Source of the DNA: a virus
Length of the DNA: 64,000 nucleotides
IMG/VR virus record: IMGVR_UViG_3300036800_000311
Span: 1-64,000 of that record
Strand: one strand, 5' to 3'
The notes below the pieces were generated by a model. That model did no database searches. It was not told where the DNA came from and was given only the letters and a program-made list of their open reading frames with translations. The first letter of the stretch is position 1. Each line of letters opens with the position of its first letter. Of this stretch, positions 1 through 39,000 are shown in pieces. The translations under genes were made by a program, and so were the position numbers.

Positions 1-4
1 GGGG

Positions 5-1747
5 GTGGGTGGGTATCAGCCGGACGCCGATCCTCAGCAGCAGCCGGACGCGCCGCGGGACGTGGCGGAGGCTGGCCTCACGGGAGCGGCCCTCCTCGCG
101 CTCCGTCGGACCTACTCCTACGTCGCTCCGACGTCGCCAGATCCGGTTCGCCGCACGGTGGCGCTCGCTCCCGCGTTCCGCGGGGTGAACGCCATGGTCG
201 GGGAGATCACGTCGATCGTGCCGGACGTCTCGCCGGTCGAGGGCGAGCGAGCGCTCTCCGCGGCGGAGGCGCTCCAGGGCGCGCTCCGGGACTGGGCGGT
301 AAGCAACGCGTACCGACTGAACATGGGCGACAGCGTCTCCTGGGCTGGCGAGCAGGCGGGGTACGCCGAGGCCGCGGACGCGGATGGTCGGCTGATGGAA
401 TGGGTCACGGAGGACGATGATCACGTCTGTGACGACTGCTCGTCACTCGGGTCGATGCCGCCGATGCCGCTCGCGGAGTGGCCGTCGGCCCCGGGCGACG
501 GGACGACGGAGTGCAACGTCGGGTGCTTCTCCCCTGGGACGCTCATTCAGGGGCGGGTAGAAGGTGGCCTACGCGCCTCCTACGACGGGCCGATGGTCGA
601 GGTGTATACGCGCGTCGGTCATCGTCTGGCCCTGACGGCCAATCACCCGGTACTGACCCCGCAGGGATTCGTCCCCGCTGGCGATCTTCGCGAGGGCCAG
701 TACGTGATCAGTCACCGCGTCCAGGTCCAGGTTCCCGTCGAGGGCGCTTCGATGCCAGAGCCTCAAGGCCAACAGGACCCAGCCCTCGTCGAGGATATAT
801 TCGAGTCGCTTGCGGAGCGGTACCGATCCGTTGACGTGAGGTCGCGAGGTGTAGACCTTTACGGCGACGCGCGGTTCCTCCAGGGCGACATCGAGGTTGT
901 AGTGCCCGACCGCGCGCTGCTGGATAACCGTCCATGGAGAGCAACGGAGTCGCTCGGCGACCTCGTCCTCATGTCGCCCTCGACGACAGCGTCTTACCTG
1001 CCGAGTTATCGCCGCGCGGCAAAGTTCATCTTCGGTCTTAGGACGACCTCGGGACGCGTCCCACGCTGCCTGGAGGAAGACGCTCGTCCGCCCAGTCGAC
1101 TTGATGTTGGCCCATGCGACCCGACTGGCCTCGCTCTGGGTACGGAGCGACATGCCCGCAGCCCGCAACTGGAGGACCGCGCTCCCGACGCTCCATCCGT
1201 TCACATGGCACATCGCGCGCCACGTACCGTTCGTGTAGGCGTCGCTAAGCGCTTGGAGCGCCGACGCTGGTGGGGCGGGATGCCTGCGGACCGACTCCGA
1301 CGCGGCGCGCGTCTGGCGCCGAACCATCGCGGGGTCCTCCTTGATTGTCTGCCACTTCAACCGCTCCGCCTCGGAGCGGCCTCGGAGATCGACGCCCGCC
1401 TGACGAAACCGGCGACCGAGGACCCCGCGTCCGATCTGGGTCTCGTCGCTGATGCTCTTGAGCGATTCCCCGCTCTCGTAGCGCCTGACGAGATCGTTCA
1501 GGTTAGGCACTATCACTTCGCGGGACACGTATACGACCTCCAGTCGCCGTTGGGGTGGGTATCGGCAGGGGGTATTTTAGCGGCCAACTGCCGATGCACC
1601 CTGGACGCCTCGGACGTCGAGCCGACCCCCGGTGACATCTACGTTCCGACGCTGGACGACTCGCAGCAAGCGACGGTCTCGTCCCTGATGGACGCCCAGG
1701 CTCAGGCGCTCGGCGCCGCGATGCCGGACGTCGCCTACCTCGAATGA
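5..1747 (+). CDS. MuF-like minor head protein interrupted by an intein
   Basis: The flanking (extein) parts carry the cysteine-rich signature of the phage Mu gpF / MuF head-morphogenesis family: VCDDCSSLGS just before the insertion and CRCTLD just after it, the usual Cys-x-x-Cys ... Cys-x-Cys arrangement. MuF proteins sit inside the head near the portal and help head assembly. Removing the 355-residue intein leaves about 225 residues, short for the family, and the frame is open leftwards past position 1, so GTG at 5 is only the first start available and the real N terminus may be outside the window. The stop overlaps the next ATG (ATGA). Family call is good; the start is uncertain. Confidence 0.75.
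   Translation: MGGYQPDADPQQQPDAPRDVAEAGLTGAALLALRRTYSYVAPTSPDPVRRTVALAPAFRGVNAMVGEITSIVPDVSPVEGERALSAAEALQGALRDWAVSNAYRLNMGDSVSWAGEQAGYAEAADADGRLMEWVTEDDDHVCDDCSSLGSMPPMPLAEWPSAPGDGTTECNVGCFSPGTLIQGRVEGGLRASYDGPMVEVYTRVGHRLALTANHPVLTPQGFVPAGDLREGQYVISHRVQVQVPVEGASMPEPQGQQDPALVEDIFESLAERYRSVDVRSRGVDLYGDARFLQGDIEVVVPDRALLDNRPWRATESLGDLVLMSPSTTASYLPSYRRAAKFIFGLRTTSGRVPRCLEEDARPPSRLDVGPCDPTGLALGTERHARSPQLEDRAPDAPSVHMAHRAPRTVRVGVAKRLERRRWWGGMPADRLRRGARLAPNHRGVLLDCLPLQPLRLGAASEIDARLTKPATEDPASDLGLVADALERFPALVAPDEIVQVRHYHFAGHVYDLQSPLGWVSAGGILAANCRCTLDASDVEPTPGDIYVPTLDDSQQATVSSLMDAQAQALGAAMPDVAYLE
524..1588 (+). other. Intein inserted in the MuF-like gene
   Basis: Protein-splicing element of 355 residues. 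Block A begins at Cys1 (CFSPGTLIQ, codon 524-526). Block B follows at about 630-720 with the TxxH motif (LTANHPVLTPQGFVPAGDL). Blocks F and G are at about 1495-1588 (HVYDLQSPLGWVSAGGILAAN), followed by a Cys +1 nucleophile at 1589-1591. The penultimate residue is Ala rather than the usual His. Splicing would rejoin ECNVG to CRCTL at the conserved cysteine site of the host protein. The roughly 250 residues between blocks B and F have no recognisable sense-strand endonuclease motifs; on the other strand this segment encodes a nuclease-like protein. Confidence 0.85.
569..1528 (-). CDS. HTH-nuclease (putative homing endonuclease) encoded antisense within the intein
   Basis: A 319-residue reading frame opposite the intein. 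It starts at GTG 1528, eight bases after a perfect GGAGG. Residues about 10-57 look like a helix-turn-helix plus linker (ESLKSISDETQIGRGVLGRR, then RGRSEAERLKW). Residues 95-140 repeat the theme (LRAAGMSLRTQSEASRVAW). Residues 165-260 resemble the restriction-endonuclease-like domain of free-standing phage homing enzymes (HEDEV near 186-190, YNLDVAL at 210-216, LRKRLEYILDEGWVLLAL at 238-255). The acidic residue I would expect near position 224 is Lys. The last 45 residues or so are antisense to splicing block B and may be only a tail. Likely role is intein homing by cutting intein-less alleles. The real coding strand is well supported; activity is inferred. Confidence 0.75.
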   Translation of the reverse strand: MSREVIVPNLNDLVRRYESGESLKSISDETQIGRGVLGRRFRQAGVDLRGRSEAERLKWQTIKEDPAMVRRQTRAASESVRRHPAPPASALQALSDAYTNGTWRAMCHVNGWSVGSAVLQLRAAGMSLRTQSEASRVAWANIKSTGRTSVFLQAAWDASRGRPKTEDELCRAAITRQVRRCRRGRHEDEVAERLRCSPWTVIQQRAVGHYNLDVALEEPRVAVKVYTSRPHVNGSVPLRKRLEYILDEGWVLLALRLWHRSALDGNLDLDAVTDHVLALAKIASGDESLRGQYRVIGRQGQTMTDARIHLDHRPVVGGA

Positions 1748-2409: not shown

Positions 2410-4451
2410 CCCGCACGTTCCTATCCACGGGTGGCCCTGGCCCGCCGGGGCCTCCCGGCATCACCGCGACGCTCCGCGGTGCGTGGTCCGCCGGTACGAC
2501 GTACACGGCCGGTCCGCCGCCCGATGCGGTCCTCGGGTCCGATGGCGCCTGGTACTACTCGCTGGTCAGCGGGAATGTCGGGCATAACCCGGTGGGGGAT
2601 GGGGGCGTGCATTGGGCGTCTGGACTGCCGAGTTCGGTGCTGAGCGCGGGTTCACCCGCACCGTCCCCGGCGACCGCCGGCCAGCAGATCCTCGTCCGCT
2701 CCGATGGCACGATCGCGTTCTTCGATCCGCCGACGATCAGCGCCGCTGCGTGGGGCGTCAAGCCGAGCGCGACCGCGACGGTCAACATGGCCGGTATCGC
2801 CTCGGCGATCGCGGCGCTGCCGCTCGGTCCGGATGGCGTGTCGCGTCTCGGGACCGTGGATCTCCCGACCGGCATCCTCAACGTGTCGAGCTTCGCGCGA
2901 GCCGACACCGGCTGCACGTACACGGCCGGGTCGGCCACGATCCTCGACTCGCACATCACCGCACTTGACCAGGGCGGGTTCGTTCTGGACATGGCCAACC
3001 AGGCTGACAACGGCGCGGTGATCCTCACCGTGAATCCCGGCGTCAGCTTCACGATCAACCGGCCCATTGTCAGCAGCGGGACGACCCTCACGGTCGTGCG
3101 CCCCGCGATTCAGGGGGCAACGGCCATGACTCTGCGAGGCCGGGGACGCAAGGGCGGCATCACGAACGTCTACAGCGCCGGAGGGCACTGCACGCTGATT
3201 CAGGACAACGGCAACGGCGTCACGATCGCCGGGCCGAACGGCGTCGACGGCGCAGCCAACTCGGCGTGGCAGTTCACCATCGAGCATCTCTCCTGCAACG
3301 GGCCGGGGAACACGACCGGCAACGCCTCATCGAACAACATCTACGGGTTCTACTGCACGAACCTCGCGGCGCTGTTCATGACGCAGTGCGATTTCGAGTT
3401 TCACGGCCGATGGGGCGTGTTCCTCGACCAGAACACGCCCGTAGCCGGGGTATTGCGGGACATGCTCATCCAGTACAACGGCACCGCCGCGGCGACGATC
3501 CCAACCGGAGGGCTGTGGGTGTCGGTGAACGAGCCCAACGAGGTCCACGCCGTCAAGGTCCGCTGCCTCTACAACTTCGGCTGGGGAGCGCAGCTCGCGG
3601 GCAACCAGCAGTGCGACAGCTGCGTATTCGGCGCCACGTTCATGAGCGCCTATGTTGACGGCACTCACACGCTCCTGACGAGCGGTTTCGGTGCTGTGAT
3701 CGCAGGCGGCTCAGACGCTCCGGTGATCCTCAACAACGTCGAATGGCAGGACAACGCAGGCCAGGCGGTCTTCTACGTCATGGGCGGCGCGAACCTGCAC
3801 ATCACCGGCGGCGGCGGCTACGGCGACAACGTCCAGCCATACGCGATCATCATGGAGAACGGCCTGCAGTCGTCCCTCACGATCGACGGGGTAGCGATCC
3901 ACGGGCACACCACCGCCGACGTGTACTTCATCGGACTGCACACGTCACCATCGAACCCGCCGCGGTTCTCCTGGCGCAACTGCTACACCCTCGACCCGCT
4001 GTGGGCAACCTTCCAGGGCGGCGTAAATCCCGACCTGCCCGCCAGCGCCGCGCAGGCCGCTGTCGGCACCTACTCGCTGCTCATGGGGGACGGGCCGAAC
4101 TGGACGAACCTCACGCTCGCGACGAGCGTCGTGTCCCGCGGCACGCCCGCCGCACCGACACCGCAGGCGATGGTCGATCCATTCGGGAACGTGCGGTTGC
4201 GGGGATGCCTGACGGGTACGAGTATCGGCGCGGGCGGACTGCTCGCGACGATCCCCGCAACGGACTCGCAAGGGAACAAGCTGCGCCCCGCCTACGAGAT
4301 AGACCTGGGTGCCATCTACTCCCAAGCCGCCCCGTACGCGCAGGGAATCGTCATCGCCGCGAACGGGCAGATCACCGTCGGCCCCGGCGGTGCCCTCGGC
4401 GCATCCAACTGGGTGTCGCTGGACGGCGTCAGCTTCAACACGTCGGCGTAG
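2406..4451 (+). CDS. Beta-helix tail spike/fibre-like protein
   Basis: About 681 residues, starting at GTG 2406 that overlaps the previous stop (GTGA). The frame is open upstream, but that part is antisense-like noise, so this start is preferred. Residues 9-18 are a collagen-like GPPGPPG stretch. Residues about 20-70 resemble a carbohydrate-binding module common on phage fibres (WSAGTTYTAG ... GAWYYSL ... GDGGVHWAS). The middle is Gly/Asn/Thr-rich with short repeating strands, as in right-handed beta-helix spikes (NNVEWQDNAGQAVFYV, LHITGGGGYGDN). The C terminus resembles a trimerisation or receptor tip (QGIVIAANGQITVGPGG). Probably binds or degrades a host surface glycan. It lies far from the other tail genes. 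Confidence 0.7.
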   Translation: MTRTFLSTGGPGPPGPPGITATLRGAWSAGTTYTAGPPPDAVLGSDGAWYYSLVSGNVGHNPVGDGGVHWASGLPSSVLSAGSPAPSPATAGQQILVRSDGTIAFFDPPTISAAAWGVKPSATATVNMAGIASAIAALPLGPDGVSRLGTVDLPTGILNVSSFARADTGCTYTAGSATILDSHITALDQGGFVLDMANQADNGAVILTVNPGVSFTINRPIVSSGTTLTVVRPAIQGATAMTLRGRGRKGGITNVYSAGGHCTLIQDNGNGVTIAGPNGVDGAANSAWQFTIEHLSCNGPGNTTGNASSNNIYGFYCTNLAALFMTQCDFEFHGRWGVFLDQNTPVAGVLRDMLIQYNGTAAATIPTGGLWVSVNEPNEVHAVKVRCLYNFGWGAQLAGNQQCDSCVFGATFMSAYVDGTHTLLTSGFGAVIAGGSDAPVILNNVEWQDNAGQAVFYVMGGANLHITGGGGYGDNVQPYAIIMENGLQSSLTIDGVAIHGHTTADVYFIGLHTSPSNPPRFSWRNCYTLDPLWATFQGGVNPDLPASAAQAAVGTYSLLMGDGPNWTNLTLATSVVSRGTPAAPTPQAMVDPFGNVRLRGCLTGTSIGAGGLLATIPATDSQGNKLRPAYEIDLGAIYSQAAPYAQGIVIAANGQITVGPGGALGASNWVSLDGVSFNTSA

Positions 4452-33032: not shown

Positions 33033-36000
33033 GTGCCCAACGAGGACATGCTGACGTACATGATCACGGCGCACGACCTCGCGACGCCGATCTTCCGGGC
33101 GTTCACGGGCGAGGTCAACGCGATGACCCGCCAGGTCCAGACGTCGCTCGCGGAGCTCAATCGGGCGCTCAAGGCCCAGCAGCTGGAGATGGACAAGATG
33201 GCCGCCTCATCGCGGACGATGGCGGCCGAGACGTCGAAGTCGACGGTGGCGATGGACTCCGCGGCGGCGAGCGCGGGAGGCCTCGGCTCGAAGGAGCGGG
33301 ACCTACAGGCCGCCCAGGTCGCCGCCACGGCCTCGTCCGCGAAGCACAAGGAGGCGCTCGTCCAGGACACCGCCGCGATGGCTGGGGCGGGGTCCGGATC
33401 GCAGAAGCTCGGCCGGGACGTCAAGGGCGCGACGACGGAGATCGAGAAGCACAAGAAGGGCATCCAGGAGGCGGGGTACGCGCTCTCCGGGTACTCGGGT
33501 CAGCTCGGGCCGTTCGGCCGGAGCCTCGACACAGCCGCGAAGCACGCGCAGCTCTTCCGGTCGCAGGGGATCGACTACGTCGCGGCGGGGATGGTCGGCC
33601 TCGGGGCGACGTTCGCCGTGGAGTCGGTAAAGGCCGCGTCGATGTTCGACAAGCTCGGCGCGTCGATCCAGCAGCAGGCGGGCGTCTCCGCGAAGGAGGC
33701 CGGTCGCCTCGTCGACGTCGTGAAGCAGGTCGCGACGCAGTCTCCCGCGGCGTACAAGGAGATCGCCGCGGCGGTCAGCACCCAGTACAAGCTCCTGCAC
33801 GAGAACTCCGCGCAGATCCAGCAGAACTCCGACCTCTTCCTCGCGTTCGCGGACAAGGCCGGGAGGCAGGTCACCCCTTCGATCGTCGCGCTGAACCAGG
33901 CGATGAGGCTCTTCCACCCGACGGGCATGTCGATCGTCGACATGATGGATCAGCTGACGAACCTCGCGCAGCATACACAGCAGCCGCTGGGCGACTACCT
34001 CGGGATCCTGCAGAAGTACGGCCCGTCGCTCCAGGCGATGGGGCTCTCGTTCCAGCAGACGATCGGCCTCTTCGACGCCTTCGGCAAGGCGGGCATCTCA
34101 ATGACCGCGGTGGGCCGGGGCCTGACGACCGCGATGTCGAAGGCTGCGACGGAGATCAAGACCGCGAACGCGGCTGCCGCGGGTGGTCCCGCGAAACTCC
34201 AGGCGTACGGCCTCGCGGTCGACTCCGCGCAAATCCGCGTGAATACCCTCAGCGGCCAGCTCGCGTCGGGGAAGGGCAACCAGCAGAAACTCAACGACGA
34301 GATGCAGGTCGCCCAGGGACGACTCGACGCCGCGAAGCAGAAGTACGACGCCCTCAACACGGTCCTGCACCACAACGCCAACGCGCACCTCACCGTGACG
34401 CAGGTCGTCGGCAAGGAGATGGCGGCGATCGAGAGCGCGAAGACGAAGCAGGACGCGCTGAACCTCTCCATCGCGGCCTTCGGCGGGAACATGGGCGCGA
34501 AGATGGCGGACGCCCTCTGGCACAACAAGGCGGCGCTCGACGGGATGAACAAGTCCCTCGGGGACGCGAAGGGCAAGACCGACGACCTCGCGAAGGCCCA
34601 GCGCGACACGCTCTCGGGGCAGCTGGCGATCGTCGGGCACGACTTCACGAACATCGCCGGGACGGTCGGCAAGGACCTCCTCCCGGTCCTGAAAGACGCC
34701 GCGCACGTCCTCGGCAGCATCGCGACGGGGATCTCGCAGTTCTCCTCCGGCTCGACGAAGGGACTATCCGAGGTCCTCATGGCCCTCGGGGTCGGCGGCG
34801 GCGCGCTGACCCTCGCCGCCCGCCACACGCCCCTCGGCGCGCTGACCTCGAGGCTGCCAGGTCCGCTCGGTGACATCCTCTCCCGCCAGAAGGACCAGAA
34901 GTCCGGCAGCCCGCTCGGCGGAGGGCCACTCGCGGAGGCGACCGGCGGCATCTGGGGGTTCACGGGCACTCAGCTCCGTGTCGGCTCGGAGGCGAACCCG
35001 ATCGCGGTCATGATGGCGGGCGGTCTCGCGCCCGGAGCGGCCGGGGCGGGCGAGACCCTCGCCACGAGGGAGAGCCCAGCGGCGCTCGGGGCCGCGACCG
35101 CCGAGGCGGGCGCAGCTGGCGCAGCGGTCACCGGGGACGCGGCGCTGACCGCACGCGGCGGGTCGATCCTCGCGGCGGCGAACGCCGAGCGGGCCGCGGT
35201 TGCCGCCGCCGCCGCCGCCACCGCCGCCGCGTCCACCTCTACCACCACCGCCAGTCTCCTCGCGAAGGTCGGCGGTGCCAGCGCGGGCAGGCTCGCGGGC
35301 GCCTTGGGTGCCGAGGGCCTGTTCCTCGGTAACGCCGTGTTCGGGTCCGGCGGCGGCGGCGGGCCGAGGGGAATGGCCGCTCAGGGCCTGTCGGGCCTGA
35401 CGACGGGACTGGTCTCTCCGGGAGCCATCCGCGGCGTGACCGACTCGATCAACAGCCTGGGCGGGGACATCCTCAAGCAGATCCCCCTGATCGGCGGTCC
35501 CCTAAACAACCTGCTGAACGTGTTCGGTGGGTCGTCCGGGCCGGATCCCGTCGCCAAGATGAAGCAGCTCGACGCGCAGATCCAGGCGGCGGCGTCCAGC
35601 GGGAACGTCTCGAAACTCCAGGAGCTCGGGCGGAAGGCGACGGAGATGGGCGCGGCGTTCACGAGCTCGGGCAGCAGCGCGGGCGCGTCTTTCACGGCCC
35701 TCGGGCAGAGGGTCCAGGTCGTGGCCGCGAACGCGAGCAACGCCCTCTCGGGTCCGCTGCAGACCGCGCTCACCCGCGTCGCTCAGTACGGGTTCCCGGC
35801 CGTCACGAAGGCGATGAACGACACGTCCCTGACGGTAGACCAGCGGTCGGCCTCGATCGTTGCCTCCCTGACGAACATCGCCGATCACGGCACCGGTCCG
35901 ATGGCGAAGAACGCGAAGACGGCGCTGGATCAGCTTCGGGCGTCCGTAGGGTCGGACCTCCAGGCCATGGCGTCCCAGACGACGACGAGCATGGGACAGA

Positions 36001-39000
36001 TGAAGGTCCAGATCCAGGACGGCTCCGCGACGGCCAGGAGCGCTGGTACCCAGAACTTCAACGCGTTCGCGAAGGCCGTCCAGAGCGCCATGGCCGCGGG
36101 CACGTACTCGACGGCAGCGGGCGCCCAGATGATCTCGAACACCCTGGTGTCGACCCTCAAGGCGTTCGGCGCGAGCGGCTCGACCATCTCGACCGCGAAG
36201 GTCCTCGCGTCGATCAATCCCTCGCAGGCTCAGAACCTGCTCGCCGAGGCGAGCGCCGGGGTGACCGCCGGGGGCCTGGCGTCTCCCCACGCGACCGGCG
36301 GGCGCGTCCCTGGTCCCGTCGGCGGGGACTCCTGGAAGCTCATCGATCCGTCCGGTCGTCACGCGGCCATGGTCGGCGGCGGAGAGCTCCTCATCGGCAA
36401 CCGCCACACCGAGGCGAAGGTGAACACCCTCCTCTCGCCCTACGGGACGACGCTGGGGGCGATGGTCGCCGGAGAGACGACCCCTCACTCCGCCCCGGGC
36501 CGCTACGCCACGGGAGGGCGCGTGGCGGGTCAGTCGCTGAGGTCCCTCGACCACGTCTTCGCGGCCAACGGCGGACAGACGCTTCCGCCGACGGTCATCG
36601 CCGCCATCGCCGAGGCCGCGGGGCTGCCGGGCATCACGTTCTCGCAGATCGCCCAGGGGGAGTCCTCCGACCAGCCAGGGGCGGTCCAGAAGGGCCAGCC
36701 GTACGGCACGACGGGCTGGGGGCTGTGGCAGATCACCCCCGGCAACTCGGTCGCGTCGGTCGGCGTCGACAACGCCCTGTTGGATCCGATCACGAACGCT
36801 CGCGCCGCGAAGGTGAAGTATGACTCGCAGGGTATGGGCGCATGGTTCGGAACGAAGTACTGGGATCACACGATCCGCCACTGGACCGGTCAGAGCCTCG
36901 GGGGCATCGCCGGAGTTGGGGCTGGCGCGGGCGGAGGGATGTCCGTCCCGTCCGTCCCGACCCCGAGGGTCGTCGGCGGCGGCATGGTCGGCGCCATCGC
37001 CCAGGCCGCGCTGTCGAAGATCGCCGGGGCCGCGAACGCTAGGCTGAGCTCGCTCGCGTCCGTCGCGGGCGGAGCGGGGGGCCTCGGCGGCGGCGTCAAC
37101 TTCCTCCCGGGCGGCGGTCGATCCGAGACGATCCCCCACGGGGCCTCGCCGGGCCTCAGCGCGATGATCTCCGAGGCGAACGCCATCGCCAGTCACCACT
37201 ATAACTACGAGTGGGGAGGCGGGCACTCCTCGATCGGCGTCCCGACGCACGGCGTCCCAGGCGGACCCTCGGGGCCGGGGATCGGGTTTGACTGCTCGGG
37301 CGCGGTCTCGGCCGTCCTCCACTCCGCCGGACTACTGAACTCTCCGATGGTCGCCTCGAACTTCATGACCTGGGGCCTTCCCGGTCCCGGGAAGTCGGTC
37401 AACATCTTCGCCGATCCGTCCCACACGTTCATGGAGCTCGCGGGGCACTACTTCGGCACGAGCGGGCAGAACCCCGGCGGCGGCGCGAACTGGATCCCCT
37501 CCTTCCCGGGGAACATCGGCGGTCCTCGGCACCCGCCCGGGTACGCGACCGGCGGCTACGTCGTCGACCAGACCCAGTTCGCGCCCGGCAAGCATCCCAT
37601 CAGGGGACTCCTGCCGGGCCTCTCCAGCGGCGGTCGCGTCGGCTACGCCGGGGCCTTCGGGACCGGCGGGACCTTCACGGCCACGAGGCCGACGCTCGCG
37701 CTCTTCGGCGACAACGGCGCGGAGACCGTCCACGCCATCCCCCACGCGACGGCTGGCGCGGCCTTCGCGTCGGACCTGGTCGCTCCGTCGTCGTACGCGC
37801 CGCCCGCGAGCACGAGGAAGCCCAAGACGACCCACGAGAGCACCCGCATCAGTCCCCTCACCGGGAAGGTCGAGACCCACACCGCCGCGGAGTGGCTCCA
37901 GATCGAACTTGAGGCCAGGAGGCAGCACAAGAACCTCGCGACGGCGAAGGCGAGGCACACCGCCTACGAGGAGCACGTCGTCCAGGATCCACTCAGGGTC
38001 GGGAGTCTGACCGCCGGATCTCTGGACCTCACGCGCAGGGCCGCCGGGAAGGAGCACCTCCCGTCGGGCGGTCCGATCTCGCTCCTGGAGGACTTCTCGA
38101 AGTTGCTGGGGTCGACGTTCAAGAAGATCGAGTCCGCGCTGAAGTCCGGCCTCGCGTCGGACTCGACGATGCAGTCGCTGAAGCTGGCGAACTCCCTCGC
38201 CCAGGGCATCGCTAGGCACCACCTCAAGGCGACGTCGCGGAACGCCCAGCTGGAGAACATCATCATCGGCGCGGCGGAGAAGAGCGTGACGGGGGACTTC
38301 ACGGCGCAGCAGTCCGCGCAGACCCACAGCCAGTCGATTCTCTCGCTGATCGCCGCCGCGCCGCCCGGGTCGACGGCGAAGAGCCTCGGGCTCTCGTCCG
38401 CTCAGCTGAGGGCTTCGGGACTCTCGGCCGCGCAGATCCGGGCGCTCTCGAACCCCGCGACCGGACCGGCGGCGATGGCCGCCGCGACGGTGAAGCTGAG
38501 CCAGAACGCGATCAAGGACTACCAGGGCGACGCTCAGCACCTGGAGTCGCTCTACAAGGACGCGCTGAAGACCCACAACAAGAAGCTCCAGGCGTCGCTC
38601 CTGTCGCAGCTCGACGCGGTCACCCAGGCCCAGCTGAAGGCGCAGGGTGATCTCCAGACGGCGATGGTCGCGATGGTCGACGCGACGGTGAAGCAGTTCA
38701 CGGACGCGGCGGCGACGCAGGCGGGGGCCGCGTCGATCCTCGCGACGATCCAGGGCCTCGCGCCCGGGACGAGCCTCGCGGGACTTGGCCTCTCCCCGAC
38801 CGTCCTCGCCCAGCTCGGCGTCAGCTCGACGCAGGCCTCCGGGCTGGAGGGATCGGACCTCGGGTACCTCCAGACGCTGATGACGGCGCAGGGCGGGACG
38901 CTCACGGCCGCCCAGCTCGCGTCCGCTCAGGCTGGGGTCGGCGCGCAGAACACCGCGCTCGGCGCCCAGCGCGCGACGGACATCGCGGGGGTCAACGCGC

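Follow-up and report, generated by a model that had tools for sequence, protein, structure and literature searches.

The nuclease of an intein is described in a review as a fusion within the same polypeptide (PMC3943268). The locus studied here raises the question of how an intein could carry a nuclease when its own sense frame has no nuclease domain, and whether a long open frame on the opposite strand is the gene that does this work. The window, by which we mean the whole stretch of DNA analysed (64,000 nucleotides of virus record IMGVR_UViG_3300036800_000311), opens inside a MuF-like head gene whose 5′ part is cut off by the window start and whose frame is open from 2 to 1747. The original prediction, made from the letters alone, was that an intein in this gene holds an antisense homing endonuclease gene. 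Comparison with relatives supports this interpretation overall, and we put at about 0.9 the probability that the element is a mobile intein with its homing endonuclease encoded separately on the opposite strand, codon-on-codon with the sense frame.

The intein and its opposite strand

Blocks A, B, F and G were all found where they had been predicted in the MuF-like gene (Table 1). The TxxH motif of block B reads TANH, its T38 and H41 being invariant in 61 sequences, and the nucleophiles and terminal Asn of a cis-splicing intein (C1, C+1 and N355) are present. The Intein_splicing profile also matched 57 of 61 relatives. Block G departs in one detail from a standard intein end, as it closes with Ala-Asn and not His-Asn; among 86 aligned sequences the penultimate residue is Ser in 50 and His in 19. 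Inteins without a penultimate His exist, so that the Ala weakens the intein call and does not exclude it. In the AF2 model of the sense protein, residues 1-65 and 318-355, the HINT parts, mostly have a pLDDT >94, residues ~86-134 are ordered (roughly 80-95) and residues 135-303 are unstructured; the best solved-structure matches of this model in Foldseek are inteins. No endonuclease domain had been seen on the sense strand between blocks B and F, and none was found there in any of 61 members.

The opposite strand carries the 319-codon gene that had been proposed, with a GGAGG 8 bases before its GTG. The two frames lie codon-on-codon, the first base of each sense codon being the third base of an antisense codon. 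The gene was thought to fill the intein from block F to block B: its start does lie within block F, but its end is not at block B, as a C-terminal tail continues into the A-B region. The two HTH-like repeats and the nuclease-like domain of the original prediction were recovered through HTH_58, the AF2 model and nuclease profile matches.

Table 1. Positions in the window of the head gene, the intein and the features of its opposite strand.
Feature	Position	Strand	Basis or remark
N-extein, MuF-like head protein	2-523	+	Open frame; spliced extein matches Phage_Mu_F weakly (E 0.0098, below gathering)
Intein, 355 codons, sense frame open throughout	524-1588	+	Intein_splicing match across both ends, E 4.5e-4
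Block A, Cys1, CFSPGTLI	524-547	+	Cys1 in 78/86 aligned relatives
Antisense homing-endonuclease-like gene, 319 aa, GTG start at 1528	569-1528	-	Homologues, profiles, AF2 mean pLDDT 85
Block B, ALTANHPVLT	629-658	+	Opposite strand is the antisense tail GQYRVIGRQG (mirror motif)
PD-(D/E)XK-type nuclease domain, predicted order H-E-E-E-H-E-H; E187, D213, Lys224	674-976	-	AF2, profiles
Sense DLYGD (family consensus DFHGD)	854-868	+	Mirror of antisense VAVE catalytic strand; family constraint on both strands
Sense residues ~135-303, predicted disordered	926-1432	+	AF2 pLDDT mostly <50; frame open, protein constraint antisense
Second helical repeat, HTH-like	1160-1267	-	AF2 secondary structure, lower confidence there
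First helix-turn-helix (HTH_58)	1361-1498	-	Pfam E 4.9e-6, above cut-off; AF2
Block F, GHVYDLQ	1523-1543	+	Antisense start and Shine-Dalgarno lie in its reverse complement
Shine-Dalgarno GGAGG, 8 bases before start	1537-1541	-	Sequence; formed by Leu-Gln codons of block F
Block G, GGILAAN, then Cys+1 of CRC	1568-1588	+	Block motif
Candidate -10 TAAAAT, 51 bases upstream of start	1574-1579	-	Weak in window copy, p = 0.14
C-extein, CRCTLD...	1589-1747	+	

A profile search with the antisense protein found 3HRL (5e-5) and, weakly, the homing endonuclease I-Bth0305I (3R3P, 0.003), and REase_MTES_1575 matched weakly in Pfam, this domain being matched by 52 of 64 members. Profiles were more informative for this protein than Foldseek with the full model, whose best nuclease match was weak (3HRL, E 0.11). 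At the family level, conserved E187, D213 and E224 together with the predicted fold correspond to an EDxHD/DUF559-like core, and when the catalytic His of EDxHD was sought, the consensus of one subset showed a Trp-His after the Glu strand. We model the product as HTH domains joined to a PD-(D/E)XK nuclease resembling the EDxHD/DUF559-like homing endonuclease type, presumably capable of cleavage. The window copy itself has Lys at position 224 (opposite sense Leu112, window 857-859), whereas the 76 aligned relatives all carry Glu there. Its set of conserved acidic residues is thus incomplete; since this Lys replaces an otherwise invariant residue, the window's own nuclease may be dead.

Two open frames and the strand under constraint

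Long antisense ORFs are common in the window, which has roughly 70% GC, and the openness of the antisense frame alone thus means little. A 606-aa minus-strand ORF at 35502-37322, opposite a plus-strand ORF of 2082 aa, is probably such a GC artefact. The sense frame is free of selection bias, because the loci were picked by their antisense protein. It had been argued that this frame must stay open through the antisense coding, and indeed it is free of stops along the antisense match in 95 of 95 loci, as against the several to 39 that are usually present in the remaining two frames of that strand (in a few loci the matched region is too short for this contrast). From the Leu and Ser content of each antisense gene and local codon use, 305 sense stops would be expected in 82 loci and none was seen (log10 P about -152); the corresponding numbers for 17 loci with <50% GC are 140 and 0. 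A further 47 loci, which include some repeats of the same contigs, give the same result. One locus that looked like an exception (L124) proved to be a range artefact, and in another (L116) a frameshift near the antisense 5′ end, near 2900-3000, shifts both frames, reflecting either an assembly error or decay. The homologues also lacked the random antisense-frame stops that the original prediction had named as evidence against itself. Conventional inteins of helicase, terminase and NrdA genes gave no match to the antisense profile; those of helicase and NrdA have stops in the codon-on-codon antisense frame, while in the GC-rich terminase intein this frame is open and the profile is not matched.

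A comparison of synonymous constraint on the two strands, which had been proposed as a check, revealed that constraint switches strand along the intein. When 24 pairs of relatives were compared, changes in intein residues 1-60 and from 331 on fell mainly at sense position 3, whereas in residues 61-315 sense position 1, that is, antisense position 3, is more variable. Over the latter stretch, single changes that alter the sense protein and are silent in the antisense one outnumber those of the opposite kind in all bins that hold more than a few codons; the ratio is mostly between two and five, and the excess is slight at residues 106-120. When the window was compared with ten relatives, sense-silent against antisense-silent changes numbered 146 vs 64 up to residue 60, 46 vs 189 in residues 135-315 and 78 vs 17 from 331 on. 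Opposite sense H113 G114 D115, which faces the VAV of the catalytic strand, antisense third bases hardly vary; opposite the sense loop they are free (mean 1.76 bits). The sense strand is thus the one under constraint in splicing blocks A, B, F and G, and the antisense strand in the middle; some bases, such as those of HGD/VAV, serve both.

The signals that would start the antisense gene lie inside the splicing motifs. In 68 of 82 aligned loci the antisense start is the reverse complement of the block-F His codon (ATG in 60, GTG in 8), and the GGAG of the family is supplied by the Leu-Gln codons of the same block. Codon choice is skewed to match: His is CAT in 49 of 56 cases (24 expected), and CTC encodes Leu in 49 of 55 (14.2 expected). 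A sigma-70-type promoter predicted in blocks G/F has a mean score of 8.7 vs 6.1 in synonymous shuffles, with p <0.05 in 23 of 68 loci, and some loci (L041, L045, L065 and L081) have perfect TTGACA-17-TATAAT promoters. Judged by these counts, selection on the putative promoter, Shine-Dalgarno and start codon acts at synonymous sense sites across the family.

These patterns bear on three other accounts of the opposite strand. If the antisense frame were a chance ORF, high GC would give its length and its similarity among relatives would mirror a conserved sense protein; the many long antisense ORFs elsewhere in the window fit this idea, as does the fact that a codon-on-codon overlap mirrors any conserved sense motif. 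However, members with <50% GC keep both frames open, the middle is better conserved as an antisense protein with sense position 1 the most variable, and both the HTH and the nuclease match profiles. The strand of constraint, the absence of expected stops and the selected initiation signals refute a chance ORF, which we give practically no weight. Alternatively, a functional sense-strand domain could occupy the middle, with the antisense frame as its shadow. The conserved DFHGD and the ordered sense residues ~86-134 speak for such a domain, but residues 135-303 are predicted to be disordered and change freely while the antisense codons stay synonymous, and no member has a sense endonuclease domain; this account, very unlikely as a whole, is rejected for residues 135-315 and partly true for 61-134; both strands constrain the first ~135 sense residues. 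Finally, the nuclease gene could part the two trans-splicing halves of a split intein in a fractured gene. A new homing endonuclease family is reportedly known from fractured genes, to go by the title of a 2009 paper by Dassa et al. that PMC10448857 cites, yet the sense frame runs unbroken between the intein halves in every locus, with all the expected stops missing, and a split intein can be set aside with next to no doubt.

Relatives, a second nuclease and mobility

By tblastn, antisense relatives were found inside MuF genes in 52 phage records from 10 genus-level groups (phages of Gordonia, Pseudomonas, Klebsiella, Vibrio, Idiomarinaceae, Haemophilus, Aggregatibacter, Rhodococcus, Mycobacterium and Cronobacter), and they also occur in cultured Salmonella and Escherichia phages. 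A profile query built from the alignment yielded 269 relatives in viral contigs, 80 of which were fetched; block B lay before the antisense gene in all of these loci, and blocks F and G lay after it wherever the contig was long enough. A single-protein pattern search of the viral contigs with the window's own proteins had given no matches, because the relatives are too distant for it. Two scans of bacterial genomes found no relatives, which is weak evidence since the patterns were narrow. An antisense protein without relatives would have counted against the original prediction; there are hundreds, and at every locus examined the gene lies antisense inside an intein.

Most copies are inserted at the MuF Cys of N|CRC. 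Some occupy other positions in MuF or precede a C[IVR]H motif, and the host genes also include a RecA-like one (L019) and a C39-peptidase-like one (L093). Clusters in the nuclease tree follow insertion site with a few switches. In Escherichia phage fEg-Eco06 (L147 2001-2894), the MuF gene known from phage Snoke has an intein with an antisense nuclease at another Cys codon upstream. Inteins of this kind were also seen in other host genes, whose C-exteins do not look MuF-like (L141, L136 and L137).

A different intein, with no match to the first profile, occupies the same MuF site in Gordonia phage Lennon (L148 1866-2690). The protein in its antisense frame is 196 aa long and includes a LAGLIDADG-like stretch. 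Its relatives are phage endonucleases from cyanophage PP and from Caulobacter phages (E 2e-6 and 8e-6). The direct Pfam match to LAGLIDADG_3 is weak (E 0.26), and the protein is classed as LAGLIDADG-like because of its cyanophage PP relative, itself a weak LAGLIDADG match (E 0.003). Between Lennon and SchottB, the antisense core has 36 antisense-silent vs 2 sense-silent changes, and the exteins show the reverse. No further copy of this second nuclease was found in a scan of viral contigs. On this pattern of substitutions and relatives, Lennon is an independent case of a putative antisense nuclease in an intein.

Empty sites were found in the Guernseyvirinae. About 403 records have an uninterrupted site matching the joined exteins of Salmonella phage demigod, for example 5sent1 (97.4% identity), and demigod and others match these joined exteins in two places. 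The inteins of demigod and of the E. coli phage Snoke, both with the antisense gene, are 95.7% identical, whereas their exteins share 67% and 80%. According to the Snoke paper, a near-identical intein is present in LSPA1 and absent from K1ind2 (PMC6776784). With some 400 related records lacking the intein at this site and near-identical inteins embedded in divergent exteins, the phage genomes compared show an element that is mobile between divergent phages. The head gene of Salmonella phage dunkel (L153 460-2319) looks chimeric, with a Snoke-like N-extein and a demigod-like intein and C-extein, as if recombination broke at the intein.

A proposed mechanism and its relation to known systems

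In the mechanism that we propose, the head gene would be translated straight through the intein, and the HINT domain (~residues 1-134 plus 318-355) would excise itself with the middle as a predicted disordered loop. The promoter, Shine-Dalgarno and start in the reverse complement of blocks G/F would permit independent expression of the endonuclease, which would cut intein-less alleles at the conserved Cys codon, repair then copying the intein in. We infer splicing, antisense expression and empty-site cleavage from the comparisons given above.

The antisense protein could be real and do another job, for instance in excluding competing phages, in defence or in antisense-RNA regulation of the head gene. 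Homing is read here from comparison, the related nuclease domain serves restriction and repair enzymes, and there were weak PADLOC matches; still, the gene was found only inside inteins at every locus examined, filled and empty alleles, mobile inteins and the agreement of insertion site with the nuclease tree point to homing, and the best named relative with known biology is the homing endonuclease I-Bth0305I. We regard another job as unlikely. For the window copy only, it is nearly an even bet, if slightly short of one, that the element is decaying and its endonuclease no longer cuts. Lys224 and the non-significant promoter suggest decay, whereas both frames are open and the antisense codons show antisense constraint against relatives; the GTG start and the Ala before the terminal Asn also count against the window copy.

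The mobile, separately encoded endonuclease that we favour has parallels in several known systems. Like bifunctional inteins such as PI-SceI, the element has a HINT domain, is apparently mobile and holds its nuclease between blocks B and F, but in inteins of the PI-SceI type the nuclease forms one domain of the intein polypeptide itself (PMC3943268) and here it would have a gene of its own, encoded on the opposite strand. Antisense homing endonuclease genes do occur in group I introns, as I-DsqI in Didymium (PMC9548176), where the gene is likewise antisense in a self-splicing element. These introns are removed from RNA and so need no second open frame, one coding frame sufficing, whereas in the present intein both strands code over almost the whole length. 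The nuclease itself shares its predicted fold, and profile matches, with I-Bth0305I (3R3P) and DUF559 (3HRL); it is distant from both, has additional N-terminal HTH repeats and is encoded antisense in an intein. Our search of open-access papers found no description of an antisense endonuclease in an intein.

We consider it probable that antisense homing endonucleases are a general, convergent way for inteins to carry a nuclease. At least two unrelated families, one EDxHD/DUF559-like and widespread and the other LAGLIDADG-like in Gordonia phages, appear to lie codon-on-codon in inteins; in the widespread family, splicing motifs would also act as promoter, ribosome-binding site and start codon, and along about 118 codons each strand would specify folded domains. 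Such an arrangement would change the standard picture of a nuclease within the spliced polypeptide, and it would explain how an intein that sits in a late structural gene could produce its nuclease uncoupled from head-gene expression. It would also provide a lengthy and well-documented example of conserved proteins encoded on both strands of the same DNA, in which the constraint on each strand can be measured.

These genes could have been missed since annotation suppresses antisense ORFs. In the phage records that we opened, the annotation gives the head gene on the other strand and omits the antisense gene, which leaves a gene family unannotated in cultured phages that are well known, among them E. 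coli phages with intein-less relatives. Snoke carries the same kind of element as the window; its capsid morphogenesis intein was noted in one paper (PMC6776784) and intein-containing Jerseyvirus genes in another (PMC8425127), and neither these nor the Snoke record mentions the antisense nuclease. In Salmonella phages ZCSE7 and NBSal007, the intein-containing MuF genes are annotated as NAD+--asparagine ADP-ribosyltransferase, which is likely a misannotation.
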